From NCBI GenBank assembly GCA_947627715.1, contig CANQXK010000012.1, positions 1 to 64,000 of the forward strand: 64,000 nt of DNA, written 5' to 3'. How positions within the stretch are numbered: position 1 is the first letter of the stretch; each line of letters begins with the position of its first letter. The translations under genes were made by a program, and so were the position numbers. The notes under the pieces were generated by a model. The model was not told the origin of the DNA, did not search any database, and was given only the letters and a program-made list of their open reading frames with translations. This DNA is from an uncultured Oscillospiraceae bacterium (GTDB lineage Bacteria > Bacillota > Clostridia > Oscillospirales > Oscillospiraceae). Shown piece by piece: positions 46,694 through 64,000 of the stretch.

Positions 46694-46722
46694 TTGCGTT
46701 CTATGGCCGAATGTGATAAAAT
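46694..46722 (+). promoter_or_regulatory. Promoter of the vWA-tubulin-GTPase operon
   Basis: TTGCGT (46694-46699), 17 bp, TAAAAT (46717-46722), with TGA giving an extended -10. It leaves a leader of about 65 nt containing a small GCGGG/CCCGC hairpin before the AAAGGAGG ribosome site. No comparable promoter was noticed in the short gaps of the following genes. Confidence 0.6.
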
Positions 46723-46792
46723 AATCAAAAATGTGTCAAAATCGGCACTGCGCGGGCCAGCCTGTCCCGCCCGTCAAAAAGGAGGTCTTCCA

Positions 46793-48961
46793 GTGAAACG
46801 CTTTTTCCCGGCGCTCATGGCGCTGCTCCTTCTTCTGCTTCTGGCCGTGCCCGGCGCGGCGGCCGCCGGCGAATCCTCTGCCGCCGCGAACCGCTTCAAC
46901 GTGGTGCTCGTCATGGACGCCAGCGGCTCCATGAAAACCACCGACCCCCAGGGCTACCGCTTCAACGCCGTCAACCTGTTCACCGACCTTCTGGCTGAGA
47001 GCGGCAACGTTCTGGGCTGTGTGGTGTTCTCCACCGGCATCGACGGCGGCGGCTCCATCTCCCCCTTCCGGGTCGATGGAAGCGCGGACAAGGACAAGGT
47101 GCTGAACGCCATCAGATCCTGGCCGAACGACGTCCAGAACACCAACATCGGCCTGGGCCTTGAGGAGGCGCTGGCGCAGCTTGAGGATTACGGCGACCCG
47201 AATCTGCCCTCCGTCATCATCCTTTTGAGCGACGGCAACACCGACATGGGCCGGAACAAGGACGCCCAGGCGGAGTCCATCGCCAAGAGGGACGCCGCCA
47301 TCAAGACCGCCCACGACCGGGGCACCCCGATCTACACCGTGCGCCTCAATGTGGACGGCAGGGCCGACGATGAAAAAGGCTCGCAGCCCAACGAGATGGA
47401 GCTTATCTCCTCCGGCACCGGCGGCGTGGCGATGGAGGTCCGCGACGCTCAGGACCTCAGCGACGTGTTCAACACCTTCTATAACCTCATCTACGGCACC
47501 TCCACCATCCCCCTGACGGACGAGGACGCCACCTTCCCCGATAACGGTCTTTTGGAGACCGCCTTTGATGTTCCGGGCATAGGCGTGGAGGAGGTCAATA
47601 TCATTATTCAGGGCGGCGCGGAGGAGGTCACCCTCCTCACCCCGGACGGGACGGTCAGCCCCGTCAATATGTCCGTCAACCCCACCTTCACTTCCATCAA
47701 GCTTACCAACATCCTCCCCGGCGTGTGGACGCTTCAGACTCGCGGCGTCCCCGGCGACCATATCAAGATCAACATGGTGTACAACACCAACCTTGAGGTG
47801 ACCGCCGCCATCGACGCGCCTGACGACTCTTTTGACAGCGCCTCCGGCACGTATGACTGCGCCGTCCCCGTCTCCGTCACCGCCGTCCTCTCCGGCGGCG
47901 GAAAAACCGCCTCCGCCGACGCCGATTACAGCGGCTACACTGCGGAACTCATCGTGGAGGACGCCTATCTGGAGCCGCTTCGGACCGTCCCCATGACCGT
48001 CTCCGGCGGCCGCTTCACCGCGGAGGATCTCACCTTTGCGGACGGCGACGTCTGCCATTTCCGGGTCCACGTGACCGCAAGCTACCTGGACCGCGACTCC
48101 GAGACCCTCGGCCCCGTCACCTTCGCGGAACGCCATCACGAAAACGAGTCCACGCCCCCTGCCCCGCTCAACACGGCCCCCGTCCCCGTGGAGGACCCTG
48201 TGGATTATTCCGTCAACATCTGGCCCTTCAGGGACAACTCCCTCTCCATCGATCTCACGGAGCTGGCCGAGGACGGGGAGGACAGCGAGCTGCGCTATAA
48301 GGTGGAGAGCACCACCTTCCCCGCCTCCGACTACGAGGTGGAGGACGACATCCTCACCATCTCCCATTACAGCCTGAGCACCGGCGATTTCCTCATCCGC
48401 GCCACCGACTCCGGCGGCCTGTACTGCACCGTCACCGTCAACATAAAGAGCCGCAACATCGGCCTCATGGCCCTCATCGGCATCGGGGCCGCGGCCCTTG
48501 TGGCCCTGGCCATCGTCGCCATTTTGGCCTACGTCGCCTCCACGAAGCCCTTCCGGGGCCGCATCACCGCCCGCAGCGACTGCAACGGCGTCCTCAAGAA
48601 CGGCGTTCCCCGCTCCCCCAGGCGCGGCAAGTGCAAGCTCGCCCTGCTGGGCGTGGACAACATCGGCCTGAACCCCTCCAAGAGCTGCTTCCAGGCCAGC
48701 GGCCAGCGGTACGTCACCTTCAACACCGACAAGAAGGTCTCCTGCAACGGACAGGAGACGAACCGCATCAGGATCGAGAGCGGCGTGGAGGTCTGCGTAT
48801 TCCTCCCCGCCACCCCCACCAAACGCCTCTATATCCGATTTGACAGCATCATGAAGAGCGCCCCCCACGGCGGAGGCCACAAGCCCCCCAAGGGCGTGCC
48901 TGTCCAAAAGAAAAACGCCCCCGTCTCCCCCGGCGGAAGCGTCCCCACCGGCAAGTGGTGA
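46793..48961 (+). CDS. Membrane-anchored vWA-domain protein, first gene of the conflict-like operon
   Basis: Start GTG 46793 follows AAAGGAGGTCTTCCA; the protein has 722 residues. A signal peptide (FFPALMALLLLLLLAVPGAAA) is followed by a vWA domain with the MIDAS motif MDASGSMKTTDPQ (residues 42-46 DASGS), NTNIGLGLEEAL and ILLSDGNTD. A long beta-rich external region follows. Near residue 570 is a membrane helix (LMALIGIGAAALVALAIVAI), then a cytoplasmic beta domain of about 130 residues (KCKLALLGVDN...RIRIESGVEVCVFLP). It is likely an external metal-dependent binding or sensing subunit. The tubulin-like gene follows after 72 bp. Confidence 0.85.
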   Translation: MKRFFPALMALLLLLLLAVPGAAAAGESSAAANRFNVVLVMDASGSMKTTDPQGYRFNAVNLFTDLLAESGNVLGCVVFSTGIDGGGSISPFRVDGSADKDKVLNAIRSWPNDVQNTNIGLGLEEALAQLEDYGDPNLPSVIILLSDGNTDMGRNKDAQAESIAKRDAAIKTAHDRGTPIYTVRLNVDGRADDEKGSQPNEMELISSGTGGVAMEVRDAQDLSDVFNTFYNLIYGTSTIPLTDEDATFPDNGLLETAFDVPGIGVEEVNIIIQGGAEEVTLLTPDGTVSPVNMSVNPTFTSIKLTNILPGVWTLQTRGVPGDHIKINMVYNTNLEVTAAIDAPDDSFDSASGTYDCAVPVSVTAVLSGGGKTASADADYSGYTAELIVEDAYLEPLRTVPMTVSGGRFTAEDLTFADGDVCHFRVHVTASYLDRDSETLGPVTFAERHHENESTPPAPLNTAPVPVEDPVDYSVNIWPFRDNSLSIDLTELAEDGEDSELRYKVESTTFPASDYEVEDDILTISHYSLSTGDFLIRATDSGGLYCTVTVNIKSRNIGLMALIGIGAAALVALAIVAILAYVASTKPFRGRITARSDCNGVLKNGVPRSPRRGKCKLALLGVDNIGLNPSKSCFQASGQRYVTFNTDKKVSCNGQETNRIRIESGVEVCVFLPATPTKRLYIRFDSIMKSAPHGGGHKPPKGVPVQKKNAPVSPGGSVPTGKW

Positions 48962-49033
48962 ACCCCGCCTATGCGGCGATCCACAGTAAATAACGCAAAC
49001 GCTTACTATATATTTTAAGGAGGAATCAACCCA

Positions 49034-52000
49034 ATGGCCGTTTATCAGAATCTTCTGCTCAGCACCGGCGGAGGCATCATCTCCAACAAGCAGCAGGCCG
49101 ACCAGGTCCGAAACACCGCCACCCTTCTCATCGGTCTGGGCGGCACGGGCGTCCACTGCATCAGGACGATCAAGACCCAGGTATACGACAGGCTCAAGCC
49201 CGACCGGCCTGAGGACATCGTCCCCCAGTACTCCCACATCCGCTTTTTGGGCGTGGACACCGACCGGCAGAGCTTTTCCAATGAGATCGGCGGCTCCATC
49301 GCCGACAAGGTACATAAGCCCAAGAGCACCGGCACCCTGCCCCTCACGAGCAGCGAGTATTTCTCCATCGAGAATCTCAACATCAGCCAGACCATCAACT
49401 CCCCTCTCGCCCTTCAGCACCACCACGAGTTCGACTGGCTGGAGCACGAGAAGATCGCCGTTCCCCAGCTGGGCACCGCCGGCGCCGGCGGCATCCGCCA
49501 GATCGGCCGCTTCATGATGATGGATAAATCCACCGAGTTTATCGACCGGGTCACAAGCGAGCTGCACGCCGCCCGCGAGGGCCTTATCAACCCCACCATC
49601 AACGTCCATATCTTCACCGGCCTCTCCGGCGGAACGGGCGCGGGGTGCTTCCTGGATGTGTGCTACATGGTCCGCTCCATCACTAAGGACATCGGCGGCG
49701 TGAACATCTTCGGCTACTTCTTCCTGCCCGACGTCAACCTCGCCAACGTCCCCATGGAGGCCACCCATGTGCGCCAGTACATCCCCAACAACGGCTATGC
49801 CGCCATGCAGGAGCTGGAGTACTGCATGGGCCTTCCCCACAACGGCGGCGCCTTCGAGCAGACCTATAAGAACAACAAGGTCATTCAGTGGGACGCGCCC
49901 CCTGTGGATATGGCCCACCTCATCTGCGCCACGGATTCCCACGGAAACGTCATCCCTCACGCCTACGAGCACGCCATGAACGTGGCCGCCGAGTACATCA
50001 TGGACTTCCTGACCCATGACACCAGCGCCTTCGGCCTCTCCTCGCATCTGGCAAACTTCCACTCCATGTGGGGCGTCGCCGACGCGAAAAAGCCCGTCGG
50101 CTCCCGCACCGACTACTGCGTCATCGGCGCGGCCTGCGCCTCCATCCCCCTCCGGGAGATCAACACCTTCCTGGCGGCGGAGCTTTTTGAAAAATTCTCC
50201 GCCATTGAGGTCAATATGCCGGAGGACAACGCCGTCAACGCCCTCGCCGTCGCCTCTCTGGCCCCCGGCGCGCAGGGCCTCCAGGACGTTTACAACGCCA
50301 TCCTTCAGGCGGTGACCCTGGGCGCGGACGCCAACTATGAACCCTACACCGCCGACTGGAAATACGTTTTTGATTACGGCAACGCCGACATGGTCGCCCA
50401 CTTCACCAATCAGACGGCCGCCAAGCAGAACGTCCACACCACAAACGCCTCCGCCCTCGCCGACCCCAAGAACGAGCAGTCCCTGATGGGCCGGCTGAAC
50501 GCCGCTCTGAGGCCCATTCTGGGCGACCTCTCCCGCGGCCCCATCTACGCCCACCGGCTTCTCTCCGCCGCGGAGAAGAGGAGCTTCCTCAACATCATCG
50601 ACGGCCTCATCGCCGAGAACGAGGCCCGCTACAGCCAGGAGGCCGCCCAGTCCACCCTTCGCTTGAACGACTACGAGGGCGCCAAGAGTGACTTTGAAAA
50701 CAGGACACGTCGCTCTCTGTTTGACTCCAATCAGCATCGGTATGAAAGCTACAAATACTATCTGCTCCTCCACCAGCAGCACACCCTGGTCATGTCCGAC
50801 TACGAGCTGATGCGCGACCTCCTGAACACCTTCAAGCAGCAGGTCATGGACATCGACGCCGACTACTATATGAAGCTTGCCCGCGTCACGGAAAACCTGA
50901 TGGAGACCTTCCGCGACAACAGGAACGCCGTGTACGCCTCCATCAACGCCAACGGCAAGGTCGCCAACGCCACCTTCTCCTTCGCCACTCCCATGGTCAC
51001 CATCAAGGAGCTGATGCCCCGCATCCAGGCGGAGGTCGAGGCCAAGAACGTGGGCGGTCTCCTGCAGCAGTTTGTGAACACGCTGGTCGCCCATCCCGAC
51101 GAATGGATCAACGAGGACGAGAACCACATCACCCGCCTGGTCACCGACTTCTTCATCAACACCGCCTTCGGGAACTTCGCCGGCCACACCATCACCGAAT
51201 TTTTGCGCGACAAGTACCAGGCTAAGGTGGGCGGCACCGTAAACGACGAGATGCTCAAGACCTTCGTTTTAGAGGACTGGATCAAGCCCCTCACCGTGAA
51301 GGCAAGCCCGCTTTTCCACTTCAACTCCGCCATCTGGACCCTGGCTCAGTCCTCCACCCTGGCCTTCCTCTCCTACCCCACCTCCTCCGCGCCGATCTCC
51401 AACGCCGCGGCGGAGATGAACAAGATCAATCAGCTGTGGAACCTGAAGGCCAGCGCCCTCACCGACCGCATCTTCGTCATGTGCAGCGCCTGCGGCCTCC
51501 CGCTCAGCTCCTACAATAACTGCTCCGCCTACGAGCAGATCTACTACGGCAGCGAGAGCGTGGGCCGTCACTACTACGAGGGCAAGCCTATCTTCAAGCA
51601 GGGCGTGGGCGATCCCCTCCCCGGCCAGCTCTTCAGCAACTGGAACCAGCTGCCCCCCGTCACGCCCCAGAGCGTGATCGACGTGGACGCTCCCCCGCTG
51701 TCGCGGGGCAACAGCCTGCGGCCCGTAAAGGAGCTCTTCGACCGCGCCGTCGCGTCCGGCGTGTTCAACGCGGACGACGGATATTTCTACGAGCCCTCCG
51801 CCGCCGATCTGGCCGCCGCCGCCCAGGTCCGGGAGCGCGCCGCCGCTCTCCTGGCCTCCGCCTCCAAGCCTGAGGACATCCCCGCCCTTGAGAACGCCGT
51901 CAAGGCCCTCCGGGACGTTGGGGAAATCAAGCTCACAAAGACCTCCCTGTACCTGCCCCGCAACGGCGCCCGGATCAGCGAAGCGGCCATCGCCAACCTC

Positions 52001-52558
52001 AACAAGGACTACTTCGTCTACTTCCCCGCCATCCGCCCGAAGGTCCGCAAGTACGTGGAGGACGTGGAGGCCCTCCGCTCCGGCAGCGATAAGCTCATCT
52101 CCGACCTGGAGGCCAGGATTGAGGACATCAAGCGCCTCGGCAACATCCTGGTGGACTATTGCGACGCCATCTTCCACGGCGTCCTCTCCATCGAGGGGAA
52201 CCAAATCGTCTACCATCAGTCGGAGTACGGCATCCAGAACGACACGGTCCTCTCCAACTTCGACAGCAGCTTCCCCTACGGTAAGCTGCCCTTCTACCAG
52301 GGCTTCGTCAGCTTCTCCAAGCTGGACGCTCCGACGCTTATCAAGATCCGCAAGGAGGTCCAGGACCTGGCCAACGCCAACTCGTCCCAGATCGCGGAGA
52401 CGGGCAAGAAGATCAGGAGCCTTCTCTCCGACAACAGGATCTCCGCGATGGTCCAGCTGGCGGATCAGCACGCAAACAAGGCCGAGATCGTGGACTTTGT
52501 GAAGAAGCTCAGACAGCAGTTCCATATCTTCTGCCTCTCCCACGACATCGAGGAATAA
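49034..52558 (+). CDS. Large tubulin-like (Tubulin_2-type) protein
   Basis: The 1174-residue protein starts after TAAGGAGGAATCAACCCA. Its amino end has LLIGLGGTGVHCIRTIK (about residues 31-47), and residues 196-204 are GLSGGTGAG. The latter matches the GTP-binding T4 loop GGGTGTG of FtsZ/tubulins, as in the Tubulin_2 (PF13809) family of bacterial tubulin-like proteins. The remaining 900 residues are mostly helical with no recognised domain. It may assemble GTP-dependent filaments or act as a switchable scaffold. It belongs to an operon with a GTPase and two vWA proteins. No membrane segment is seen. Confidence 0.85.
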   Translation: MAVYQNLLLSTGGGIISNKQQADQVRNTATLLIGLGGTGVHCIRTIKTQVYDRLKPDRPEDIVPQYSHIRFLGVDTDRQSFSNEIGGSIADKVHKPKSTGTLPLTSSEYFSIENLNISQTINSPLALQHHHEFDWLEHEKIAVPQLGTAGAGGIRQIGRFMMMDKSTEFIDRVTSELHAAREGLINPTINVHIFTGLSGGTGAGCFLDVCYMVRSITKDIGGVNIFGYFFLPDVNLANVPMEATHVRQYIPNNGYAAMQELEYCMGLPHNGGAFEQTYKNNKVIQWDAPPVDMAHLICATDSHGNVIPHAYEHAMNVAAEYIMDFLTHDTSAFGLSSHLANFHSMWGVADAKKPVGSRTDYCVIGAACASIPLREINTFLAAELFEKFSAIEVNMPEDNAVNALAVASLAPGAQGLQDVYNAILQAVTLGADANYEPYTADWKYVFDYGNADMVAHFTNQTAAKQNVHTTNASALADPKNEQSLMGRLNAALRPILGDLSRGPIYAHRLLSAAEKRSFLNIIDGLIAENEARYSQEAAQSTLRLNDYEGAKSDFENRTRRSLFDSNQHRYESYKYYLLLHQQHTLVMSDYELMRDLLNTFKQQVMDIDADYYMKLARVTENLMETFRDNRNAVYASINANGKVANATFSFATPMVTIKELMPRIQAEVEAKNVGGLLQQFVNTLVAHPDEWINEDENHITRLVTDFFINTAFGNFAGHTITEFLRDKYQAKVGGTVNDEMLKTFVLEDWIKPLTVKASPLFHFNSAIWTLAQSSTLAFLSYPTSSAPISNAAAEMNKINQLWNLKASALTDRIFVMCSACGLPLSSYNNCSAYEQIYYGSESVGRHYYEGKPIFKQGVGDPLPGQLFSNWNQLPPVTPQSVIDVDAPPLSRGNSLRPVKELFDRAVASGVFNADDGYFYEPSAADLAAAAQVRERAAALLASASKPEDIPALENAVKALRDVGEIKLTKTSLYLPRNGARISEAAIANLNKDYFVYFPAIRPKVRKYVEDVEALRSGSDKLISDLEARIEDIKRLGNILVDYCDAIFHGVLSIEGNQIVYHQSEYGIQNDTVLSNFDSSFPYGKLPFYQGFVSFSKLDAPTLIKIRKEVQDLANANSSQIAETGKKIRSLLSDNRISAMVQLADQHANKAEIVDFVKKLRQQFHIFCLSHDIEE

Positions 52559-52640
52559 ACGGCTTCCTGCCGGCCGGCGGGCCGCAGGGATCTCCTGCTG
52601 CCCGCCCTTTTTCCGGCACCGCCAGGATAGGGGGTATCTC

Positions 52641-54524
52641 ATGGACGCGAACCTGACTGTTCAAAGCGTCATCGAATATTTTGAGGATAAGCTCCGCCAT
52701 CAGGAGGGGGCGATCTCCGGCTCCAAATCCGGCAGCGCGCCCCAATATCCCATGATGGTGTTCCACCTGGGACCCTGCGAGCGCGGGGCCGCGCTGGCCG
52801 ACGGCCTTATGTACCTGTGGCCTCAGTTCCGGCAGGAGATCCCGTTCCTCTCCGTCAAGCCCGCGCCCGGCGGGGCGGAGCTGCGCGAATTTTTCCCGCA
52901 GGGGAACGGAAAATACGCCGTCTCCCCTGACCGCGTAGACGCCGGCCGGGCGGCCGATCTCGCCTCCGGCCTCTCCTCCATCGACCGGCACTTCAGAAGC
53001 TATGTAAAAATCGTCTCCTATTTCGTGATCGACACCTTCGGCCTTCAGGACCTGAAGGCCTTTTCCGCCTGTCTTGACGCGGTCTCTCAGGCCCAGAGCG
53101 CCACGGGCATCAGCGCCGCCATGTCCATGTCCATGCTCATTATCCTTTTGGACGAGTCCAACAGCTCGCGCCAGAAGCTGGCGGGACAGATCAGGAACCT
53201 GCTTGCCCAGAACGTTTCCCAGGGATCGTCTGCCAGCGTCTGCCTTGTGAGCAACCGCCTGAACGACCAGCGCATCGCGCCCCCGGAGGTCTGTACCAGC
53301 CTCTCCACCGCCGTCATCGCCGTCTCCAACAACCAGGACGCCCAGACCGTGCAGGACACGTTCTTTAACCACCGCCTCTTCACCGCCGGCTACCGCCGGG
53401 CGGAGAAGCCCATCGCCGATATTTGCCAGTTCATGGTGACCCGGCTCGTCAACCGCCTCTCCCGCCTCCAGACCGCCGGGGAAAATCTCCCCTCCGGCCG
53501 GGAGCTTGCCCAGCGCCTGGGTGTCTCGCAAAACGGCACCATCGTCACGCTGGACCGTTACGTCCAGGACAACTTCGCCTCCCTTCTCCCCACGCCCCAG
53601 CAGTTGGAGCTGTTCCCCCGCAGATCGTGCGCCGATTTCTCCGGCAGCCCTGAGGCCATGTCCGCCAGCGACTTTAACGAGGAGACCATGGGCGCCTGGA
53701 GTGCGTACCTGGCCGGACTGATGGCCGAGGCGGGGTCCCGCCTGGAGCTGAACCGGGTGGAGATGGAGCGGCTTGCCGCGGACTACGGGGCGTATCTGCG
53801 CCGGGAATTTACCGTCAGGGAGCTTATCTGGCTCTCCGAGCACGGGGAGGCGGTGGACGCCTGCTTTGCCTCGCCCCGCGAACCCTTCCCCCATCTGGGG
53901 ACTCTGGAATACGCCGGGGAATACCTCAAATACCTTCTCTCCTCCAATCAGGAGCTTCGCGCCCTCTGCCGCGGGGCGCTGGACCGGGCCTGTACGGAAG
54001 CCGCGGAGTACCTGAAGGACTGGAACGCCTTGGTCGGCTCCATGTCCTCCCTCCACCCCATCCGGCAGGGGGACGGCTTCACCGGCTTCTACAGCGGCCT
54101 TTTCAACGACTATTACGACAAGCAGAGCCACTTCATCGAGGACGACTTCAAAAAGCTCTCCTCCAGAGAGGGCCTGCGGAAATTCTTCACCCGCGCCGTG
54201 GACGGGATGCTCCAGGACGACGCGCTGAAAAACGCCCTGTGCGCCTCCTTTGTGAGCGAACTCACCTACAACGACCAGGACGACGCCAGCAGTTTGGTGA
54301 AAAAGATGCTGGTGCCCGGTCAGGTGCCGGTATACCTCCAGACGCTCTTCGCTCTGGGCGCGCCCTTCCGCTCCTTCCTCCTGGCCGATTCCGGCTCTCT
54401 GCCCGCCGCGCTGAACATCCCCTCCGGCATCGCCGTCTACGATACGGGCCGGGGCAGCGCGGTGGAGGCGCTCTATCTCTACGGACTGCGCCCCGATTCC
54501 ATCATGTTCGGAGGTGACCTGTGA
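52641..54524 (+). CDS. Unrecognised 627-residue protein coupled to the tubulin-like gene
   Basis: No known domain is recognised. The protein begins with an alpha/beta segment (YPMMVFHLGPCERGAALADG), then LQDLKAFSACLDAVSQ and MSMLIILLDESNSS. The later part is mainly helical with RLVNRLSRLQTAGENLP and YLKDWNALVGSMSSLHP. The LGPCERG pattern could be a degenerate nucleotide-binding loop, but this is speculation. It starts 83 bp after the tubulin-like stop, and its TGA overlaps the next ATG (TGATG). A dedicated partner of the tubulin-like protein is the natural inference. Confidence 0.7.
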   Translation: MDANLTVQSVIEYFEDKLRHQEGAISGSKSGSAPQYPMMVFHLGPCERGAALADGLMYLWPQFRQEIPFLSVKPAPGGAELREFFPQGNGKYAVSPDRVDAGRAADLASGLSSIDRHFRSYVKIVSYFVIDTFGLQDLKAFSACLDAVSQAQSATGISAAMSMSMLIILLDESNSSRQKLAGQIRNLLAQNVSQGSSASVCLVSNRLNDQRIAPPEVCTSLSTAVIAVSNNQDAQTVQDTFFNHRLFTAGYRRAEKPIADICQFMVTRLVNRLSRLQTAGENLPSGRELAQRLGVSQNGTIVTLDRYVQDNFASLLPTPQQLELFPRRSCADFSGSPEAMSASDFNEETMGAWSAYLAGLMAEAGSRLELNRVEMERLAADYGAYLRREFTVRELIWLSEHGEAVDACFASPREPFPHLGTLEYAGEYLKYLLSSNQELRALCRGALDRACTEAAEYLKDWNALVGSMSSLHPIRQGDGFTGFYSGLFNDYYDKQSHFIEDDFKKLSSREGLRKFFTRAVDGMLQDDALKNALCASFVSELTYNDQDDASSLVKKMLVPGQVPVYLQTLFALGAPFRSFLLADSGSLPAALNIPSGIAVYDTGRGSAVEALYLYGLRPDSIMFGGDL

Positions 54525-55165: not shown

Positions 55166-55188
55166 ACAGACCTTAAGGGAGAACCGAT

Positions 55189-56787
55189 ATGAGTTACGAT
55201 ATTACCTGCCCCTATTGTTTTGAACATTTCAGGGATGAAGACGTGATGTTCCGCTCGGAGAAGATCAACCAGGGCGACCCTCACATCATCCCCGACGAAT
55301 ATGACGACCTGGACGACTTTATCGCCCGCTACCACGGCCCCGACAAGGAGGCGCTGGTTTTCCGCCAAGCGGACTGGGATTTCTTCGCGGAGGGCGAGGA
55401 CGAGGTCTACGAAGCCTTCTGGAAACGGTATAACGGCACCACCGAGACAAATTACGCCGACAAGGTCCTCAATCTTCCCCCCGCCTACCGCCGGCGCGTG
55501 CTGAACCCCTCCGACCCCCACCACCAGACGTATCTCGCCGTCCAGCCCGACGGGGGCTATTTTATCCGGGACAACCAGGGCATGGTGGCCCAGGTGCAGC
55601 TGTTGACAGGCGAACACTGCAACCGGCGCGTCTGCCCCCACTGCCACAACCCCCTGCCGGACGGGTACGGAAAAAATACCGTGAAATTCGTCACCGTCAT
55701 CGGTATCACCGGCTCAGGCAAGACGGTGTACCTCTCCCAGCTCCTTCGGAAAATGCAAAATTACGCCGCTCTTGTGGGCCTCTCCGCCATCGTCAACGCC
55801 CCCTCCGCCCGCGTCTTTGTGGAGAGCAACGTGGTGGCCGACCGCAAACCCCTTCCCGGCTCCACCCCGGCAAACAGGCTCCAGCAGCCCATCTTCTACG
55901 AGATGGTCCGCAACTCCGAGGGCAGTCAAAAGGTGTCCAACACCTTCGTCCTCTACGATGTGGCGGGCGAGGTATTCAGCTCAGGGGACAACACCCTGGT
56001 CAATCGCTTCGCCCCCTATGTGGAGCACGCCGACGGCGTGATCGTCCTCATCGACCCTTTGCAGTTCGACATCATCAGCAGCGCCTCCCGGAACAAAAAG
56101 GCGCTGGTCGATCCCACCATCGTGTTCGACACCATCCACACGCTCATCTCCCACGGCGACCAAAACCGCAAGTGCGACATCCCCTTCGCCGTGTGCATCT
56201 CCAAGGACGACACCGGCGATTTCCAGCAGGTCCTCTCGCAAAATATGCGGACCTTGCTTCTGAAGGACGTAAGCAGTGTGCGCGACAACAACGGCTTTGC
56301 GGTCCCCATCTTTAACGCCGCTGAGTATAACGCCATCCTCCGAGAGCTGACGGACTTCATGCAGGGTCCCAACGTCAATGACAACCGCATGGCCCTGGCG
56401 ACCCTTCTCCACAACAACTACTCCCGGTATTCCTTCTTCGCCATCACCGCCCTTGGCTGTGAGGTCGAGGAGAGCGGCGAGGGCGTTCAAAAGTACCAGT
56501 ACCCCGTGGGTCCCGTGATCCCACGGCGCATCGAGGAGCCGCTTCTGTGGCTCTTCCATTGCCTGGGCTATATCGGCGTCAACCAGCCCATCGAATACCC
56601 CTACAACCCCAGATGCCCCAACTGCGGCTCCAGGGCGACCTTCCCCCTGCCGGAGGATGAGCGCACGGCGCGTATACGCGAGGGGTTCCTCAGATCCCGA
56701 ACGGTCAATGTGGACGCCGGCTGCGCGGCGTGCTGGTCAAGATGGAATCTTCAAACCGGGGAGATCGTCCCCCCGGGCAATAAGTGA
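55189..56787 (+). CDS. Zinc-ribbon P-loop GTPase (double-GTPase-like)
   Basis: The 532-residue protein starts with a zinc ribbon (ITCPYCFEHF), and its second half (CNRRVCPHCHNPL) lies near residue 144. The GTPase core has Walker A GITGSGKT at residues 172-179, the DxxG motif DVAGE at 257-261, and a likely G4 motif CISKDD near residue 338. A last cysteine pair (RCPNCGSRA, CAACWSRW) sits at the C-terminus. It resembles the double-GTPase families known from comparative genomics to pair with GAP1 proteins, and such a gene is next. This family assignment is from memory. It probably cycles GTP to control the complex. Confidence 0.75.
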   Translation: MSYDITCPYCFEHFRDEDVMFRSEKINQGDPHIIPDEYDDLDDFIARYHGPDKEALVFRQADWDFFAEGEDEVYEAFWKRYNGTTETNYADKVLNLPPAYRRRVLNPSDPHHQTYLAVQPDGGYFIRDNQGMVAQVQLLTGEHCNRRVCPHCHNPLPDGYGKNTVKFVTVIGITGSGKTVYLSQLLRKMQNYAALVGLSAIVNAPSARVFVESNVVADRKPLPGSTPANRLQQPIFYEMVRNSEGSQKVSNTFVLYDVAGEVFSSGDNTLVNRFAPYVEHADGVIVLIDPLQFDIISSASRNKKALVDPTIVFDTIHTLISHGDQNRKCDIPFAVCISKDDTGDFQQVLSQNMRTLLLKDVSSVRDNNGFAVPIFNAAEYNAILRELTDFMQGPNVNDNRMALATLLHNNYSRYSFFAITALGCEVEESGEGVQKYQYPVGPVIPRRIEEPLLWLFHCLGYIGVNQPIEYPYNPRCPNCGSRATFPLPEDERTARIREGFLRSRTVNVDAGCAACWSRWNLQTGEIVPPGNK

Positions 56788-56800
56788 GAGGAGGCCCTGC

Positions 56801-59110
56801 ATGGACAGTAAAGTTTATCAGTGCTGCTACACCAACGCCATCCGTCAGCTGGGAGACACCCGCACCACCGGCTGGCAGACCGTGGCGGTCTCGCCGGACA
56901 TCCCCCACGAGGCTTACGCCGCCTGCTCTAAGCTCCAGATCGCCAACTCCTCCATCCAGTCCGTGCCCACGGACGAGAACGGCGATGTGCTGAAGCTCAC
57001 CGAGATCTACGGCGACGGAAGCTCCCTGTACGTCCTTCGCACCGTCTATGGGCTTATGGACGACAAGGGGCGGCCCAATATGTTCTCCCACGCCTACATA
57101 TTCCCCCTCGCCGGCGGCCTTCAGGCCATCCAGGACCCCAACCTCTTCCTCTCTCTTGACGAGCGCTGCTTTAAGGACTCCGAGGAGGCCGCGGAGAGTT
57201 GGGACGGCCGCCTTGCGTACCTTGAGCCCCTGACGCTGGAGACGGCGCTGGCGCGCGCCGGCCTCGACCGGGAGAAGTATATCAAGCTCATCCACTGCGT
57301 TTACGCCCAGCTCTCCGAGAAGAGGTCCACCCAGCCGCTCTACGTCCAGTACGACGGCACGGCGGAGAATATGCGCGCCATCCTCTACTGCGTCTATTAC
57401 GGCCTCCCCTACGGCATAAGGCGTTCGCTGAAGATCGCCTCATGCCCCTCCTGGGGAGACGCCTCCAAGAACCTGGTCTTTTCCCGCAATGCCGGGGAAA
57501 AGGGCCTCTACGTGGACCCCGCCTCCGGGGAGGAAAACATCCTCACCGGCGCCGTGGAAAAGCGCATCGCCCGCAACGGCTTCATCGACCACGCCGTCCG
57601 TGACCTGCCCTACGGGGCGTTCGGCGGCTTCTTCTCCGGCCTCGACCAAATGACCGCCTCCCTGGGGGACCCCCTGGGGAAGAGCGAACTCACCGTAAGG
57701 CTGGCCTACACCCTTCTTGAGGGCGGCGACGTGACGGCCATGTCCGAGGACGGACTGGAACGGACCCTCAGCGACACCCTGCGCCTGAAGCCCACCTCCG
57801 ACGAGCGCGTCTGCGGCTTTATCGCCCAACTGGTGGGCGAGCTGGACGCCCGCCGCTTCCCCCTGTCCGACGAGATCGAGCAGACTTTGAGCGACTGGAT
57901 CACCTCCTCCGGCTCCGACGTTCTGCGCGCCGCCGGCACCAGCCACAGCGTACACCGCCTCTTCTCCCTGACAGACAGCGAGGCCGTGGAGAAGCTGGCC
58001 TCCATGTCCCAGGAGTCGAGGGCCTTCTATACCGGCGTTATCCGTGATCAGGCCCGCGGCCAGGAGATCCTCCGCCTCTACTTTGACAGCCGCCTGGCCG
58101 CCGCCGGCGAGACCTGGGCAGGGCTGCACTCCCTCCTTGACGACGCCGCCGTTTTAGACGACCCGTCCGCCCTCCACGCCGCCGTTTTACAGCGGGCCGA
58201 GGCGCTCTATGCCCAGGGCGTGTCCCTGGGCGCCGACCCGGTGGAGAACCTGGTGGGCTACCGGGACGTGATGATGCGCGTTCTCCCCCAGGAGGAGACC
58301 AATGCCCGCGGCCAGCGCGCGCTGGAGGCGTATTGGAGCGGCGTGAACTACGACAACTTCTCGTTCGACAAGGCCCACGAGTATATATCCATGCGCACCA
58401 CCAACCCCCAGTGCTCCGCCATTTTGAACCTCATCGTCATGGGCGCGAAATACCGTGAGGACAACGAGACGGAATTTTTCCTCTCCCTGCGCCGGTTCCT
58501 CCGGGATCCGGCCCTCTCCGCCCAGAACCGGGAAAAGGTCCTTGCGCGCCTTCGTGAGGTCGTCGCCTCCCGCGCCCCTGAGAGGGCGGAGAACTTCGAC
58601 ATATGGGCGGACATGGCAAGCAGCGCCGGCACCGTCACCCAGCTGAACGCCCTCCTGGCCCTCCGCGCGGCGCTGATGCCCTTTGACGCGCAAACGCTCA
58701 TCCAGGTCCTGCAGGAGCATGACCTGTCCGAATTCCGCAAACGGCGCTCCGGCGCGGTCCTCTTCCAGATGCTCTACCGCGAGTGTACGCGGAACGACCT
58801 CAAAGACGCCCCGCTGCCCCTGGATTTGTGGCTGCGCCTTGGGAGCCTGAGCTTCAACAATCCCTTCGACATTTTCAACAAGTGCGAAGGGTGCGTCCTC
58901 TCCGCCAGCCCCGCCGCGGTCGTCCGGGACAGCCAGCTTATGAAGACGGCGAAATACAGGACCTTGGCCGAGAACTATGTGCTCATGAAGGGCGATGCCT
59001 CCAAGGCGGTGAAGCGGTGGCTCTCCGAGGCCAGGGACACCCATAATACCGCCGCCCCCGGCGGCGAGGCTCCTCGCTCCGGGTACAAGGGCCTCTTTGG
59101 CAAGAAGTGA
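56801..59110 (+). CDS. GAP1-like GTPase-associated protein
   Basis: The 769-residue protein starts at ATG 56801 after GAGAGGAGGCCCTGC. Its amino end, with YQCCYTNAIRQL, TTGWQTVAVSPDIP, LYVLRTVYGLMDDKGRPN and FSHAYIFPL, fits the N2-type domain of GTPase-associated protein 1. A long helical middle and C-terminal part follows. Proteins of this class accompany double-GTPases in predicted signalling or conflict operons. The role as activator, substrate or scaffold is not established. The following gene starts about 10 bp past the stop. Confidence 0.7.
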   Translation: MDSKVYQCCYTNAIRQLGDTRTTGWQTVAVSPDIPHEAYAACSKLQIANSSIQSVPTDENGDVLKLTEIYGDGSSLYVLRTVYGLMDDKGRPNMFSHAYIFPLAGGLQAIQDPNLFLSLDERCFKDSEEAAESWDGRLAYLEPLTLETALARAGLDREKYIKLIHCVYAQLSEKRSTQPLYVQYDGTAENMRAILYCVYYGLPYGIRRSLKIASCPSWGDASKNLVFSRNAGEKGLYVDPASGEENILTGAVEKRIARNGFIDHAVRDLPYGAFGGFFSGLDQMTASLGDPLGKSELTVRLAYTLLEGGDVTAMSEDGLERTLSDTLRLKPTSDERVCGFIAQLVGELDARRFPLSDEIEQTLSDWITSSGSDVLRAAGTSHSVHRLFSLTDSEAVEKLASMSQESRAFYTGVIRDQARGQEILRLYFDSRLAAAGETWAGLHSLLDDAAVLDDPSALHAAVLQRAEALYAQGVSLGADPVENLVGYRDVMMRVLPQEETNARGQRALEAYWSGVNYDNFSFDKAHEYISMRTTNPQCSAILNLIVMGAKYREDNETEFFLSLRRFLRDPALSAQNREKVLARLREVVASRAPERAENFDIWADMASSAGTVTQLNALLALRAALMPFDAQTLIQVLQEHDLSEFRKRRSGAVLFQMLYRECTRNDLKDAPLPLDLWLRLGSLSFNNPFDIFNKCEGCVLSASPAAVVRDSQLMKTAKYRTLAENYVLMKGDASKAVKRWLSEARDTHNTAAPGGEAPRSGYKGLFGKK

Positions 59111-59120
59111 GGGCGCGGCC

Positions 59121-60209
59121 TTGAGAAACAGATATTACGGGCCGGAGGACCTGGCCTTCAGCGCCATGTACGGCGGCGCCGTCTATGAGCGTTCGGAAAA
59201 CACCGTGCCCGACCCCTTCTCCCCTCCGGGGGAGAGTCCCGGCGAGAGCCCGATGATGGTCAACGTCCTGACGGGGGAGACCATGTTTCTCCGCCGCCTG
59301 AACGCCGCCGCCTCCCAGGAGGTGGAGCTTTACCGTCTGCGGATCTTAGAGAAGCCCTCTTTTGACGGGGTCTTCTGGCCCATCGACCTGATGATCCTCT
59401 CCCCGGAGCTTCAGGCGAAATGCACCCTCTTCGCGGATAACCAGTACACCGACCAGACGCTCCCGCCGCAGGCCCGCCAGGGGGAGCTGGCCGCCGCCTT
59501 CATCTACCGGGATATGTCGGCCTACGAGCGGTTCGACCGCTGGCTTTCCCACGCGGGGCCTCTCTCCTGGGAAAACGCCGCCGTGGTAACGGCCAGCGCG
59601 GCGATCCTCCGGGCGCTGAACCGCCTCAACCGATCCGGCTTTACCCTCAACGACTTCCATTTCTCCCGTTTCTTCTACAGCGGCTCGGGGCGGATCATGC
59701 TGGACTACTCCACGCTCATAAACTCCAGGCGGGAGATGACCCGGCGCACGATGCTGCGGACGAATTTTGAAAACAACTATCCCATGGAGTTCGGCCACCC
59801 CCGCGTCTTTGACGGTTCCCTCAAATACCTGAGCGTCCAGACCCAGAACTACAGTCTGGCCGCCATGCTCTTCTACCTGTTCTTCGGGCGGTACGCCTAC
59901 GACGGCCGGCTGATGACCGGGTACGCCGACACCGACCTCCTGAGCCACTACGTCAAATTCCGGCAGTATCACAAGATGACGTTTTTCATCTTCGATCCCA
60001 ACGACCACCGCAACTCCATCGGCACCTTTTCCGACGAGGAAAGGGTCATTCAGCTGTGGAACAGGTGCCCGGAGGCGCTGCGCCGCCGCTTCTGCGACGC
60101 GCTGGTCCTCCCGGCGGAGGGCGCTTCCGGCTCCTCCCCCTCGCTGCCCACGCCCACAGACTGGCTCTCCACCCTGGAACAGTGCGGTCTTCTTCGAGGT
60201 GCTCTATGA
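59121..60209 (+). CDS. Protein-kinase-fold-like protein
   Basis: Start TTG 59121 (LRNRYYGPEDLAF) is chosen because it lies just after GTGAGGGCGCGGCC; the open frame extends 24 bases further upstream. The protein has 362 residues. The stretch LNRLNRSGFTLNDFHFSRFFYSGSG followed by RIMLDYSTL matches the spacing of the catalytic loop and DFG segment of kinase-fold proteins, with LND and LDY in place of HRD and DFG. Early residues MMVNVLTGETMFLRRL may hold the ATP lysine region. It may be a pseudokinase or a divergent kinase. It overlaps the next gene by four bases. Confidence 0.55.
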   Translation: MRNRYYGPEDLAFSAMYGGAVYERSENTVPDPFSPPGESPGESPMMVNVLTGETMFLRRLNAAASQEVELYRLRILEKPSFDGVFWPIDLMILSPELQAKCTLFADNQYTDQTLPPQARQGELAAAFIYRDMSAYERFDRWLSHAGPLSWENAAVVTASAAILRALNRLNRSGFTLNDFHFSRFFYSGSGRIMLDYSTLINSRREMTRRTMLRTNFENNYPMEFGHPRVFDGSLKYLSVQTQNYSLAAMLFYLFFGRYAYDGRLMTGYADTDLLSHYVKFRQYHKMTFFIFDPNDHRNSIGTFSDEERVIQLWNRCPEALRRRFCDALVLPAEGASGSSPSLPTPTDWLSTLEQCGLLRGAL

Positions 60210-61288
60210 ACGAAATCAACAACCTGTCCGGCGCTGTCTCCGCCCTGAAGGGCATCGCCGGCGTCCCCACCGCCCGCCTCTCCGACGTGGGCCGCGCCGT
60301 GCGCAGTCTGCTTGAGACCTCCGGGCGCGAGGCGTTTGCCGACCGGGAGGCGCTTCCCGCCCGGCTGCGCAGTCTGGGCCTCTCCGAGGAGGACGTCTAC
60401 CGTCTGTGCCTTTTGAGCGCCGTCAGCGGCTTTGAGGACCTGATCGACACCGGGGAACCGGCCACCCAGATGGAGCTGGACCGCTACGCCGCCAACGCCG
60501 CCTCCACGGGGCTAAGCCGCAGCGTGATCATGTCGATGATGGCGGAGCTGACCTGCGCCGCCGGGAACACGGTGTGCGTCTCGCAGCTCTCCTCCCTGCC
60601 CGGCCCGGAGCAGGCGGACGCCCCCGCCTTTGTCATCCCCTGGCGCGTCTATGCCGACGACCTGCGGGCGGTGAAAGCCGCCTTTACCAAGTGGAAGGAG
60701 AACGGCGGCCCCCTGCCGCAGGATATGCTGGACCAGCTCTGGCCCCTGGTACACGCCGGGATCGCCGAGGCCCAGTATTACATGGGCTATATCCTCCTCC
60801 ACGGCGACGAAACAGGCGGCCAGGAGGCGGACTCCCAGGAGAAGGGCGTGGAGCTTCTGACTGCGGCCGCGGACGCCGGAAACGGCCCCGCCGCCTCCGC
60901 CCTGGGGGATTACTACTACTTCAAGGGCGGCTCCGAAAACTGGGGCGTGGCCTACGACTACTACACCGGCTTTGCCGCCCCGGTCCTGAGCGAACCCCAG
61001 CGGCGGGCGATGATGGACATTTTCAACCACCGGCGCTTCAACAGGATCCTCCTGCAATTCAGCGCCCTTCTCCTGGCGGTACTGCTGGTCAGCGTCCTGT
61101 GGGCGCCCGGCGCGCCGGTCTTTTCCGTGATGCCCGCAGCCGGCGTCGCGGCCCTGGTCCTGGCCGCCGCCCTGCTGGTGTTTGGCTTCATCCGCCACCA
61201 AAATTCCCCCTACGGCAACGTATATTACGTCCCCACCGGGATGTTTGCGATCTGGGCGGTCTATATGTTCCTCCGCCTTGTGTTTTGA
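60206..61288 (+). CDS. Sel1-repeat protein with C-terminal membrane helices
   Basis: The 360-residue protein starts at ATG 60206 overlapping the previous stop (ATGA), after CGAGGTGCTCT. A helical N-terminal part (LSDVGRAVRSLLET) precedes Sel1/TPR-like repeats at about residues 185-260 (AGIAEAQYYMGYILLHGDE, AADAGNGPAASALGDYYYFK). Three hydrophobic helices close the protein. Sel1 repeats are protein-interaction modules. It probably tethers soluble components such as the GTPase or kinase-like protein to the membrane. Confidence 0.7.
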   Translation: MNEINNLSGAVSALKGIAGVPTARLSDVGRAVRSLLETSGREAFADREALPARLRSLGLSEEDVYRLCLLSAVSGFEDLIDTGEPATQMELDRYAANAASTGLSRSVIMSMMAELTCAAGNTVCVSQLSSLPGPEQADAPAFVIPWRVYADDLRAVKAAFTKWKENGGPLPQDMLDQLWPLVHAGIAEAQYYMGYILLHGDETGGQEADSQEKGVELLTAAADAGNGPAASALGDYYYFKGGSENWGVAYDYYTGFAAPVLSEPQRRAMMDIFNHRRFNRILLQFSALLLAVLLVSVLWAPGAPVFSVMPAAGVAALVLAAALLVFGFIRHQNSPYGNVYYVPTGMFAIWAVYMFLRLVF

Positions 61289-61307
61289 CGCGGGGAGGGA
61301 GAGCCGG

Positions 61308-62867
61308 ATGAACAACACGCTTCTGAACCGCGGCATCTATTTTACCGTGAATGCCCTCCTGTCCGCCCTTGCGCTGATGGGAAACATCTCCCTGATCACC
61401 GTCTGCATCTTTCTGGCGGTGCAGGCGCTGATGGGCTTCCTCTTCTTCCGAGCGCCCGTCCGGGAGGCCCCCGCCGCAGCGGACCTGCCGCTGCTCCTCT
61501 TTTTTGATGTGCTCCTGTACGCCGGGATCCGTTATGAGCTGATCCTCCGGGGTCTTGATTTCAGCCAGAACTCCGTCCCCTTCGACAACATCCTTGTCAC
61601 CGGCGTCTTTTCTGCGGCCTTTGGCCTCTTCGGCCTTCTGAAAAAGAAGCGGACGCCCAAGTGGATCGCCGCCCTCTTCCTGGGGTTTGGCGCGTTCCTG
61701 TCGCTGACAAGTCTGTATGTCTTTCAGTTCCTCCTGTATGTGCTCTTCGTCTTTATGTGGATGGCCGCCTCCATCGTCTCTGAGCGCATCGACCGGGGCA
61801 AGGCCGTCCGCAACAACTGTTTTGGCGTCCTTCTGTGCGCCCTCTTTTTTGCCGTCTATCTTTTTGAACCGCAACTCTTTATGGCGCTGGGGAACGAGTG
61901 GGCGTCCGTCATCGCCTTTGCCGGGGGCCTGCTGGCCACACCCTGGCAGGTGCTGCTCATCGCCGTGGGCCTGATCGCCCTCTCCCTGCCCATGTGCTCC
62001 TTCTCCCCCGGAAGGGTGACCGTGGACGCCTGCGTCCTCCTGACGCTGGCATCCCTCACCGTTGTCTGGGGCTTTGCCGGGTGGCGTCTTTTTATGTGGT
62101 CCCCCCTCGTCGCCGCTGCGGCCGTGGTCCCGGCCATCATATGCCTTACCCGGTTCGCCTCCGGGAAGGACGCCCACGGCTTCTTCCCCGTGCCCCTGGC
62201 GCTGGGCGGGATCCTGATCCTCTACCTGGCCTATGACGGACTGTGGCTGACCATGCTGGCCATCGCCGCCTCCGCCGCCGTCTTGCGGTTCGCCTCCAGG
62301 AAGATCGAGTACTACAAGGAGAGTCCCGTCTTCTGGATGCTCATTCCCCTGTGCGTCTTTGCCGTGTCCCTCTCGTGGCTCCTCTTTAAGCGCCGGTCGG
62401 TCCCCGGCGTGCTGGTGCTCATCCTCATCACCGCCGTCACCCTCGCCGCCCTTTGGGTACTGGAAAGGCCCCACCCCGCCGGATTGCGGGCCGGGTTCAG
62501 ATACCGCGCCGTCATTTGCGGCCTCTCGGCGCTTTTGTGCGCCGTCACGCTGTGCCGCGGCGGCTTCGCCGCCAATATCGAACCCTCCGCACAGGGGGAC
62601 ACGATCCTTGTGGAGATCCGCTGCCGCGACAGGGACGCCACCATCGGCCAGGTCTCCTATGTCTGGACAGACCCCCTGGGTCTGGAAGAGGGGATCCACT
62701 ATAAGAAGCTCTATCTCAGCGGGGAACACTCCACCGCCGCCACCTTCTCCTGCCAGGACGAACGCCTCGTCATCCGCGCCGCCGACAGCCTCGGCGTCTC
62801 CACCAGGATCATCCTCTGGAGGCGTTACGACCTGGACCGCCTGCTCTTTACGCGGTTCTATTTCTAA
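61308..62867 (+). CDS. Polytopic membrane protein with external C-terminal domain
   Basis: The 519-residue protein starts at ATG 61308 after GGGGAGGGAGAGCCGG. About 12-14 hydrophobic helices fill residues 10-430. After them comes a beta-rich region (AQGDTILVEIRCRDRDATIG...LGVSTRIILWRRYDL) of about 85 residues, probably outside the membrane. No transporter signature is seen. It follows the Sel1 protein by 19 bp. It may form the membrane platform of the system. Confidence 0.6.
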   Translation: MNNTLLNRGIYFTVNALLSALALMGNISLITVCIFLAVQALMGFLFFRAPVREAPAAADLPLLLFFDVLLYAGIRYELILRGLDFSQNSVPFDNILVTGVFSAAFGLFGLLKKKRTPKWIAALFLGFGAFLSLTSLYVFQFLLYVLFVFMWMAASIVSERIDRGKAVRNNCFGVLLCALFFAVYLFEPQLFMALGNEWASVIAFAGGLLATPWQVLLIAVGLIALSLPMCSFSPGRVTVDACVLLTLASLTVVWGFAGWRLFMWSPLVAAAAVVPAIICLTRFASGKDAHGFFPVPLALGGILILYLAYDGLWLTMLAIAASAAVLRFASRKIEYYKESPVFWMLIPLCVFAVSLSWLLFKRRSVPGVLVLILITAVTLAALWVLERPHPAGLRAGFRYRAVICGLSALLCAVTLCRGGFAANIEPSAQGDTILVEIRCRDRDATIGQVSYVWTDPLGLEEGIHYKKLYLSGEHSTAATFSCQDERLVIRAADSLGVSTRIILWRRYDLDRLLFTRFYF

Positions 62868-63006
62868 TGGTTCCTGCGTATTATAACATATATCTAACCA
62901 CTTTTCAAGGGGTTATTTAATTATTCTGAAATATTTTTCGGCGTTCCTGCTTTTGAGCGCCGTTTCCCTCCGGCTGACGCCGGCGGGATGAAAGGAGCTG
63001 TGCCAA

Positions 63007-64000
63007 ATGCCCACCCCCAAGCCTCCCCGCAGGCCCTCCAAGTCCCCCTACGGGTCCTCTCCGTACTCGTCCCCCTACGGGACGACCCCGCACAATCCCT
63101 CCCCTTACGCCCCTTCCCAGGGCGCTCCCTCCCCCTACGGCCCGTCTGTGAGCGGCCCCTCCCCCTACTCCAAGTCGTCCAACGGGGGCCGCCAGGCGAA
63201 GGGTCCGACGCGCCCCACCACCCAGGCGCTCAACGTGCTGGTGCTTCTGGCCTCTCTGCTGCTGGGCTTCCTCTTCTGGGTCGTGACGGAGTCCTGCTGG
63301 AACTCGCTCCTTGAAAACTGGGCCGCCCCGGTGCGCATCGGGTTCCTCTTCTCCATTATGGCGCTGCTGGTCTCCCTCCTGGTCCTGGGCCTGTCGGCCC
63401 TCACCGGCTCGCTGAAGGACAACGTGGTCTTTCGCGGCCAGGGGATGGGGTCCGCTTTCCTCTTCTCCCTGCTGCTGTGCATCGTGATCTTCGGCGCCGG
63501 GGCGCTCTTCCAGTGGATCTACAGCGTGGACTTTGTCGCCGGGGCCCGCAAGCCCACCTCCCTCGTCTTTGTGATCGATGACTCCGGCTCCATGTCCATC
63601 ACCAATGACCCCCTTAATTTGCGCTACGACGCCATCGACGACGTGCTGGACGAGGAGGACGACAGCTTCCCCTACATGGTCTACAGCTTCGGTAGAGACG
63701 TCGTCCTGCTGCGTGATATGGCCCCGGCAAGGACGCCCGGCATGGAGTCCGCCGACGTGGGCAGCGGCGAAACCAACATCCACGCCGCGCTGACGCAGGT
63801 GATCGAGGATTACGAGGACGGCCTGTGGGAGGGCGGCCGCGTGCCCCGCGTCATTCTGCTCACAGACGGGGACGCCTCGGATATTTACTCCACTTCCCAG
63901 GTGGATCCCCTTCTGCGCCGCTATCTCCGCGCCGGCATCTCCATCAGCACCGTGGGCCTGGGCGATGCGGACTTAGGACTTCTCGCCCACATCGCGGAGG
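63007..64000 (+). CDS. Second membrane vWA-domain protein, cut by the window edge
   Basis: The frame opens at ATG 63007 after AAAGGAGCTGTGCCAA and stays open to the end (331 codons). The first 60 residues are a proline-rich region with repeated SPYG/SPYS units and a basic tail. Three membrane helices follow (about residues 75-95, 111-131 and 148-172). A vWA domain then carries the MIDAS motif IDDSGSM (near residue 192), SGETNIHAAL and LTDGDASD. With the first gene it makes two vWA proteins at opposite ends of the operon. The amino end is likely cytoplasmic and the vWA domain external. Confidence 0.82.
   Translation, partial: MPTPKPPRRPSKSPYGSSPYSSPYGTTPHNPSPYAPSQGAPSPYGPSVSGPSPYSKSSNGGRQAKGPTRPTTQALNVLVLLASLLLGFLFWVVTESCWNSLLENWAAPVRIGFLFSIMALLVSLLVLGLSALTGSLKDNVVFRGQGMGSAFLFSLLLCIVIFGAGALFQWIYSVDFVAGARKPTSLVFVIDDSGSMSITNDPLNLRYDAIDDVLDEEDDSFPYMVYSFGRDVVLLRDMAPARTPGMESADVGSGETNIHAALTQVIEDYEDGLWEGGRVPRVILLTDGDASDIYSTSQVDPLLRRYLRAGISISTVGLGDADLGLLAHIAE

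Follow-up and report, generated by a model that had tools for sequence, protein, structure and literature searches.

An operon of ten genes, g1 to g10, lies at the right-hand end of a 64,000-nucleotide stretch of DNA from an uncultured Oscillospiraceae bacterium (assembly GCA_947627715.1, contig CANQXK010000012.1, positions 1 to 64,000), which as a whole is referred to as the window. This operon is a gut-lineage variant of the tubulin theme of GAP1-N2 systems and belongs to the FtsZ-like-1 operons. Besides a large tubulin, g2, it encodes g3, which as judged from its predicted structure is a divergent second tubulin, a pseudo-tubulin without the canonical GTP loops, and g7, which its model identifies as a kinase-fold pseudokinase. 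We propose, with about an even chance of being right, that the products of the operon constitute a membrane-docked GTPase/GAP1 switch that controls a tubulin:pseudo-tubulin assembly.

Proposed tubulin pair and pseudokinase

When species genomes were scanned with the GTPase of the operon, 244 related stretches came up, of which the best 80 were retained. The related loci include operons arranged as in the window, called gut-type, and operons of a second arrangement, called Paenibacillus-type. The Tubulin_2 match of g2 spans residues 31-387 of 1174 and is followed by a long C-terminal extension. Both of its GTP loops are intact, GLGGTG at T1 and SGGTGAG at T4; the partner tubulins of the related loci have GLGGTG at T1 and either GGGTGSG or SGGTGAG at T4. 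Since an ordinary FtsZ is encoded elsewhere in the genome, g2 is not the division protein. In six loci (L056, L066, L067, L069, L071, and L076) an extra tubulin copy, often truncated or frameshifted, lies upstream of the g2 gene, which suggests duplication followed by decay.

The identification of g3 as a tubulin rests on its predicted model and on fold comparison because a relationship to g2 was undetectable by profile comparison. The AlphaFold2 model, built from 33 sequences, has a mean pLDDT of 87.9, with long helices at residues 437-470 and 478-504. When compared with known structures by VIA-align its best match was to tubulin (Z 14.7, root-mean-square deviation 4.2 over 270 residues), and all 50 of the structural neighbours listed belong to the tubulin/FtsZ family, with Z of 12-14.7. 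Foldseek alone was ambiguous: IniA and dynamin-like chains came out on top with TM values of 0.13-0.16, and TubZ and CetZ, ranked below the dynamin-like chains, had high probabilities but poor E-values (about 0.95 and E 0.05 for TubZ). Tubulin_2 was weakly matched by 7 of the 33 members of the g3 family, the best at 3.5e-4. The protein is also homologous to a protein of about 800 amino acids (aa) encoded in the Paenibacillus-type operons (hhalign 98-99.5%, E 1e-14 local and 2e-22 global).

The loops of g3 differ from those of g2. The glycine-rich T1 and T4 loops are absent from all the g3-type proteins, 25/25 of the gut type and 48/48 of the Paenibacillus type (73/73), whereas both loops are kept by 25/26 gut-type and 42/42 Paenibacillus-type partner tubulins (67/68 in total). 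In most gut-type g3 proteins a DT motif ends the strand leading to T4, in place of the loop, and the sole match to the loop pattern among the 48 Paenibacillus-type g3 proteins, at residue 102 in locus L111, falls in a low-complexity stretch. From this contrast we infer that the second tubulin is not capable of canonical GTP binding. Alternatively, g3 might be active as a tubulin, with unusual loops that bind GTP, and make a true alpha/beta-like pair with g2. The predicted fold is the same and the second tubulin of Firmicutes was given in 2020 as a plain tubulin-domain protein (PMC7159879), but the replacement of both loops in every one of the 73 g3-type proteins examined, next to a partner that keeps both in all cases except one, makes this alternative improbable.

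As for g7, the guess of a kinase fold in the initial annotation was borne out by structure prediction. The AlphaFold2 model (pLDDT 84.7) matched protein kinases in Foldseek with E 2.4e-8 and a probability of 1.00; its best structural match was the kinase homology domain of STK40 (Z 17.7), and Tribbles pseudokinases were among the top rows. Pkinase was weakly matched by 4/18 members of the g7 family, the best at 4e-4. None of the 18 members has the complete set of catalytic residues, namely, the Lys, the HRD Asp, the Asn, and the DFG Asp; the residues at these places in the window are R66, D186, R191, and D203. Although the start of g7 is listed as TTG 59097, comparison with the orthologue makes TTG 59121 the probable start.

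Layout of the operon and its other proteins

The ten genes are listed below with their strand and the evidence for each.

46793..48961, + strand: g1, vWA protein, 722 aa (Pfam VWA 4.9e-12; hydropathy)
49034..52558, + strand: g2, Tubulin_2 protein of the FtsZ-like 1 family, 1174 aa (Pfam Tubulin_2 9.3e-55; loop alignment)
52641..54524, + strand: g3, putative pseudo-tubulin, 627 aa (AlphaFold2 model, fold comparison, hhalign, loop alignment)
54521..55165, + strand: g4, soluble protein, 214 aa (conserved in gut-type loci; hhalign)
55189..56787, + strand: g5, zinc-ribbon DO-GTPase2, 532 aa (Pfam DO-GTPase2, PF19993, E 1.1e-8)
56801..59110, + strand: g6, GAP1 with N2-type N-terminal domain, 769 aa (Pfam GAP1-N2, PF20013, E 4.7e-8, 33.6 bits against a cut-off of 24)
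59121..60209, + strand: g7, predicted pseudokinase, about 362 aa (AlphaFold2, Foldseek, catalytic-residue check)
60206..61288, + strand: g8, Sel1-repeat protein with C-terminal transmembrane helices, 360 aa (Pfam Sel1 1.3e-5; hydropathy)
61308..62867, + strand: g9, polytopic membrane protein, 519 aa (hydropathy)
63007..64000 and on to 64392, + strand: g10, second vWA membrane protein, 461 aa (Pfam VWA 2.8e-9; hydropathy)

The composition given by the initial annotation, a ten-gene vWA/tubulin-like/GTPase/GAP1/kinase-like set, holds: all ten open reading frames (ORFs) are on the + strand and Pfam confirms vWA, Tubulin_2, DO-GTPase2, and GAP1-N2. Its boundaries needed revision. The operon does not begin at 46694; g1 starts with the GTG at 46793, behind AAGGAGG, and a purine-rich ribosome-binding site precedes most of the starts. 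The co-directional genes run from 46793 to contig position 64392, nine of them complete in the window and g10 overrunning it by 392 bp; the contig extends to 69696. Reading past 64000, as had been suggested, completed g10 and revealed a hairpin followed by genes on the opposite strand that are convergent with the operon. The hairpin, AGAAGGTCGCTATAGCTGTC-ggattat-GACAGCTATAGCGACCTTCT at contig 64426-64472 (L002:1627-1673), is a perfect 20-bp stem with a 7-base loop, and because it and the convergent genes come after g10 we place the end of the operon there. Lying between convergent genes, it is terminator-like for both strands. The intergenic gaps from g1 to g10 are 72, 82, -4, 23, 13, -14, -4, 19, and 139 bp, and that between g6 and g7 changes from -14 to 10 bp with the revised g7 start. 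By this layout the ten genes look like a single transcription unit. That one promoter drives them, as had been stated, is not established, since no sigma-70-like site on the + strand passed our scan; no RNA families or tRNAs were found in the window.

Among the switch proteins, g5 has the Walker A motif GITGSGKT, which is kept in 30/30 members of its family, the Walker B motif DVAGE, an SKDD motif, and CxxC pairs, and its gene ends 13 bp upstream of g6. The g4 gene overlaps the end of g3 by 4 bp and is conserved in gut-type loci. Its product is probably the counterpart of the protein of about 211 aa that is encoded upstream of the GTPase in Paenibacillus (hhalign probability 83-85%). No domain was found in g4 by Pfam or by sequence profiles of PDB entries, and g3, g7, and g9 of the window likewise have no meaningful Pfam match.

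The membrane proteins were laid out mainly from hydropathy. The predicted layout of g1 is a signal peptide, an extracytoplasmic vWA domain (metal-ion-dependent adhesion site DASGSM) and beta domains, one transmembrane segment at residues 560-578, and a C-terminal region of about 140 aa that is predicted to be cytoplasmic; relatives of g1 also match Hemicentin GBD-like and TerF-like vWA models. In g10 three transmembrane segments are followed by the vWA domain and then by two or three more. The vWA domains of both g1 and g10 are predicted to lie outside the cell. The call of a Sel1 membrane protein for g8 also stands, with one Sel1 repeat, under the curated Pfam score cut-off, and two or three C-terminal transmembrane helices. 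The remaining membrane protein, g9, has about 12-15 hydrophobic segments and a C-terminal soluble part, and none of 13 members of its family has a Pfam domain.

Related operons and known systems

Co-occurrence of the genes in other genomes had been set as a test of the system, and they do co-occur. The whole operon is present in G006, another species of the genus, with all ten genes in identical order and 54-80% protein identity, and its core is found in about 26 further loci. Between the window and G006 the ratio of nonsynonymous to synonymous substitution rates (dN/dS) is 0.18-0.46 for all ten genes, as expected under purifying selection; therefore the unrecognised ORFs are real constrained genes. 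The block common to the two begins at the end of the SDR gene that precedes the operon and stops in the last bases of g10; on either side the flanking sequences are different.

Gut-type loci are arranged g1-g2-g3-g4-g5-g6, with g2-g3-g4-g5-g6 constant; most continue with g7-g8-g9 (g7 is present in 20 loci), and in several g10 is terminal. The g7-g9 genes are absent from the rumen Oscillibacter group (L058-L064) and from [Eubacterium] cellulosolvens (L057). The loci of Paenibacillaceae and Bacillaceae (L077, L079-L129) run vWA1, a tubulin of about 1129 aa, the protein of about 800 aa, vWA2, the protein of about 211 aa, GTPase, and GAP1. Each of these genes is homologous to a gene of the window, the 211-aa one probably so, but the g3 counterpart is longer, about 770-890 aa, vWA2 is inside the core and not at the end, and g7-g9 are absent. 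The Paenibacillus-type vWA2 matches g10 by profile, and it matches g1 too because both are vWA proteins. The g7-g8-g9 block is therefore typical of the gut lineage and absent from the Paenibacillus-type operons. Cultured carriers of the operon or of parts of it are Lactococcus hodotermopsidis, [Eubacterium] cellulosolvens, and Bifidobacterium callimiconis. Some loci depart from these arrangements: in B. callimiconis (L073:6756-15238) three consecutive DO-GTPase-like genes (1054, 1201, and 525 aa) follow GAP1-g7-g8-g9; an 891-aa protein without a Pfam match is in the GAP1 position in L078:8349-11024 and L080:12673-15348; and a 1047-aa C-type-lectin protein is in the g9 position in L080:17615-20758.

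The initial annotation took the operon to be a candidate undescribed system and the link between a tubulin and two vWA proteins to be unusual. Neither claim is supported by comparison with the literature, in which operons of vWA, FtsZ-like-1, GTPase, and kinase were described by Makarova and Koonin in 2010 (PMC2875224) and the association itself, in Firmicutes, by Kaur in 2020 (PMC7159879). In the latter study GAP1-N2 systems were divided into three non-overlapping themes, one of which, the tubulin theme, accounts for about 52% of GAP1-N2 neighbourhoods. In Firmicutes this theme combines tubulin, two vWA proteins, DO-GTPase, and GAP1-N2 and was assigned to predicted NTP-dependent conflict systems; the Firmicutes version has two tubulin genes and two vWA genes, the second tubulin being simply termed a tubulin-domain protein (PMC7159879). 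The DO-GTPase of these systems belongs to the TRAFAC clade, has zinc ribbons and a conserved Walker B Glu, and is usually encoded directly upstream of GAP1, and one vWA protein of the tubulin theme has several transmembrane helices with its vWA domain external (PMC7159879). The window shares with this theme the N2-type GAP1, the zinc-ribbon DO-GTPase upstream of it, two tubulins, and two vWA proteins. Other features of the theme are a C-terminal coiled coil on the tubulins, a YtkA domain on one vWA protein, and a polar GAP1 tail, and GAP1-N2 systems include an FNIII-repeat component (PMC7159879). The YtkA domain had no match in relatives of g1, and FNIII models matched neither g4 nor its relatives, so that g4 is a candidate for the FNIII component by position only.

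The window differs from the published theme in having g7, g8, and g9 between GAP1 and vWA2 and in a second tubulin that is so diverged as to be missed by Pfam and that lacks both GTP loops. Active kinases were placed in a separate, actinobacterial theme (PMC7159879). Compared with Kaur 2020, its supplementary tables aside, the new elements are the g7-g8-g9 block, a kinase-fold protein occurring in the tubulin theme, g3 as now identified in the gut lineage, and a second tubulin whose GTP loops have been systematically lost. With the FtsZ-like-1 operons of Makarova and Koonin the window shares Tubulin_2 with a long C-terminal extension, vWA, a kinase-fold protein, lineage-specific membrane proteins, and a diverged GTPase with a cysteine-rich domain (PMC2875224). 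It differs from them in having no recognised OmpA-family protein, in having a pseudokinase as its kinase, and in the addition of GAP1 and the second tubulin. No match to a characterised pathway was found; the genes match the predicted system instead. Of the papers listed for GAP1-N2, the 2020 study alone contains the term, and the papers found on Tubulin_2 were evolutionary or incidental.

Proposed role and neighbouring genes

In the mechanism that we propose, g1 and g10 would sense an extracellular or envelope ligand through their outside vWA domains. The signal would cross the membrane to cytoplasmic g5 and its partner g6, which would act as a thresholding switch; such a GTPase/GAP1 threshold switch, with a nucleoside triphosphate (NTP)-gated multimeric assembly near the membrane, was inferred for the family by Kaur 2020 (PMC7159879). 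The switch would then permit GTP-driven assembly of g2, whose loops are intact, together with g3, with which it may be in physical contact. As a nucleotide-blind partner of g2, g3 might cap, nucleate, or tether the polymer, while g7, g8, and g9 would dock the assembly on the membrane, and the output would be a triggered local change in the membrane or envelope. For g8 an analogy is provided by Prosthecobacter, in which a TPR protein links bacterial tubulin to the membrane (PMC5372463). The likeness of BtubA/BtubB/Bklc to the window, two tubulin-fold proteins and such a linking protein, is by analogy: both Btubs are structurally close to eukaryotic tubulins, the set has no GTPase/GAP1 or vWA, and we claim no common ancestry.

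In its general form, which we think could equally well prove right or wrong, the proposal is of a cytoskeletal switch that would be common to Paenibacillaceae and gut Clostridia and would combine a catalytic tubulin with a pseudo-tubulin as its obligate, nucleotide-blind partner, to which the gut lineage would add a pseudokinase, both pseudoenzymes regulating the assembly of a single membrane-docked machine. A class of systems known since 2010 and 2020 as a prediction only would thereby acquire defined, testable claims: the predictions are that g3-type proteins pair with the Tubulin_2 protein and fail to bind GTP and that g7 has no phosphorylating activity. If this is the case, bacteria would have a counterpart of the tubulin heterodimer, one of whose subunits no longer carries a nucleotide.

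Several results weigh against the proposal or against a role in conflict. Direct profile comparison of g3 with g2 was not significant, and neither a toxic effector nor a nuclease could be found among the ten genes. A known defence system was considered and rejected, as none of the ten proteins had a meaningful match in PADLOC. Dozens of species have the Paenibacillus-type relative, a distribution that might fit a role in housekeeping or development. A PADLOC candidate defence gene next to the operon, described below, is not beside it in G006. Finally, no experiments on the tubulin theme or on FtsZ-like-1 operons were found in the open literature. Because the evidence on role is mixed, we hold the switch-plus-assembly mechanism at even chances, with defence and envelope remodelling both as possible roles.

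Defence against phages or other bacteria, which we rate as a serious possibility a little short of even, would have the membrane vWA proteins or a cytoplasmic sensor detect an attack, the GTPase/GAP1 pair fire, and the tubulin assembly and the polytopic protein damage or seal the membrane in an abortive response. GAP1-N2 systems were placed among predicted conflict systems (PMC7159879), and the operon is rare and patchy: GAP1-N2 is found in 2/34 genomes of the genus and the g3 profile in 3/393 genomes across the class. A related tubulin is found in 21/394 genomes of the order. Moreover, the tree mixes Actinomycetota, Lactococcus, and Clostridia, which suggests transfer, although metagenome bins account for several of the loci that mix. 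TerD genes point the same way. In [Eubacterium] cellulosolvens the related operon is immediately preceded by TerD-domain genes (L057:357-1592) and contains a SEC-C-TerD fusion between GAP1 and vWA2 (L057:13189-14160), and in an Oscillibacter bin three TerD-like ORFs are downstream (L062:14732-17932). So does the neighbouring PADLOC candidate, PDC-S53, 129 bp past the end of g10. On the other hand, besides the want of meaningful PADLOC matches and the broad presence in Paenibacillaceae, carriage by mobile elements found no backing: the tubulin had no match in a phage collection and no confirmed relative in viral contigs, and the Tubulin_2 matches on plasmids, in Thermus, Meiothermus, and Paraburkholderia, were all distant and took in just 14-17% of the protein.

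That the operon encodes a machine for remodelling the envelope or membrane, for instance in vesicle formation or repair of wall stress, was first proposed for FtsZ-like-1 operons, and we entertain it more tentatively. Makarova and Koonin inferred membrane remodelling because vWA, GTPase, kinase, and membrane proteins occur together in the same way (PMC2875224), and in the window membrane proteins make up four of the ten products, with both vWA domains predicted to be outside. However, the 2010 proposal was based on gene context only, and because GAP1-N2 is found in so few genomes of the genus, normal growth of the envelope does not require the operon. That so many membrane proteins and a GTPase are encoded together would also be in keeping with a system for protein secretion or surface assembly, but none of the ten genes was recognised as one for a secretion ATPase, pilin, secretin, or substrate, and the nearest tad-type genes, downstream of the operon, are those of a single relative, L057; we regard this reading as very improbable.

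Of the genes that flank the operon, the SDR gene (45770-46570) was considered as a partner and rejected: it is divergent from the operon and is present in 20/34 genomes of the genus, whether or not they have the operon. On the other side, PDC-S53, an SF1 helicase (8e-238), occupies contig 64522-67577 (L002:1723-4778); it is convergent with the operon and looks frameshifted, being split into two ORFs (742 and 299 aa).

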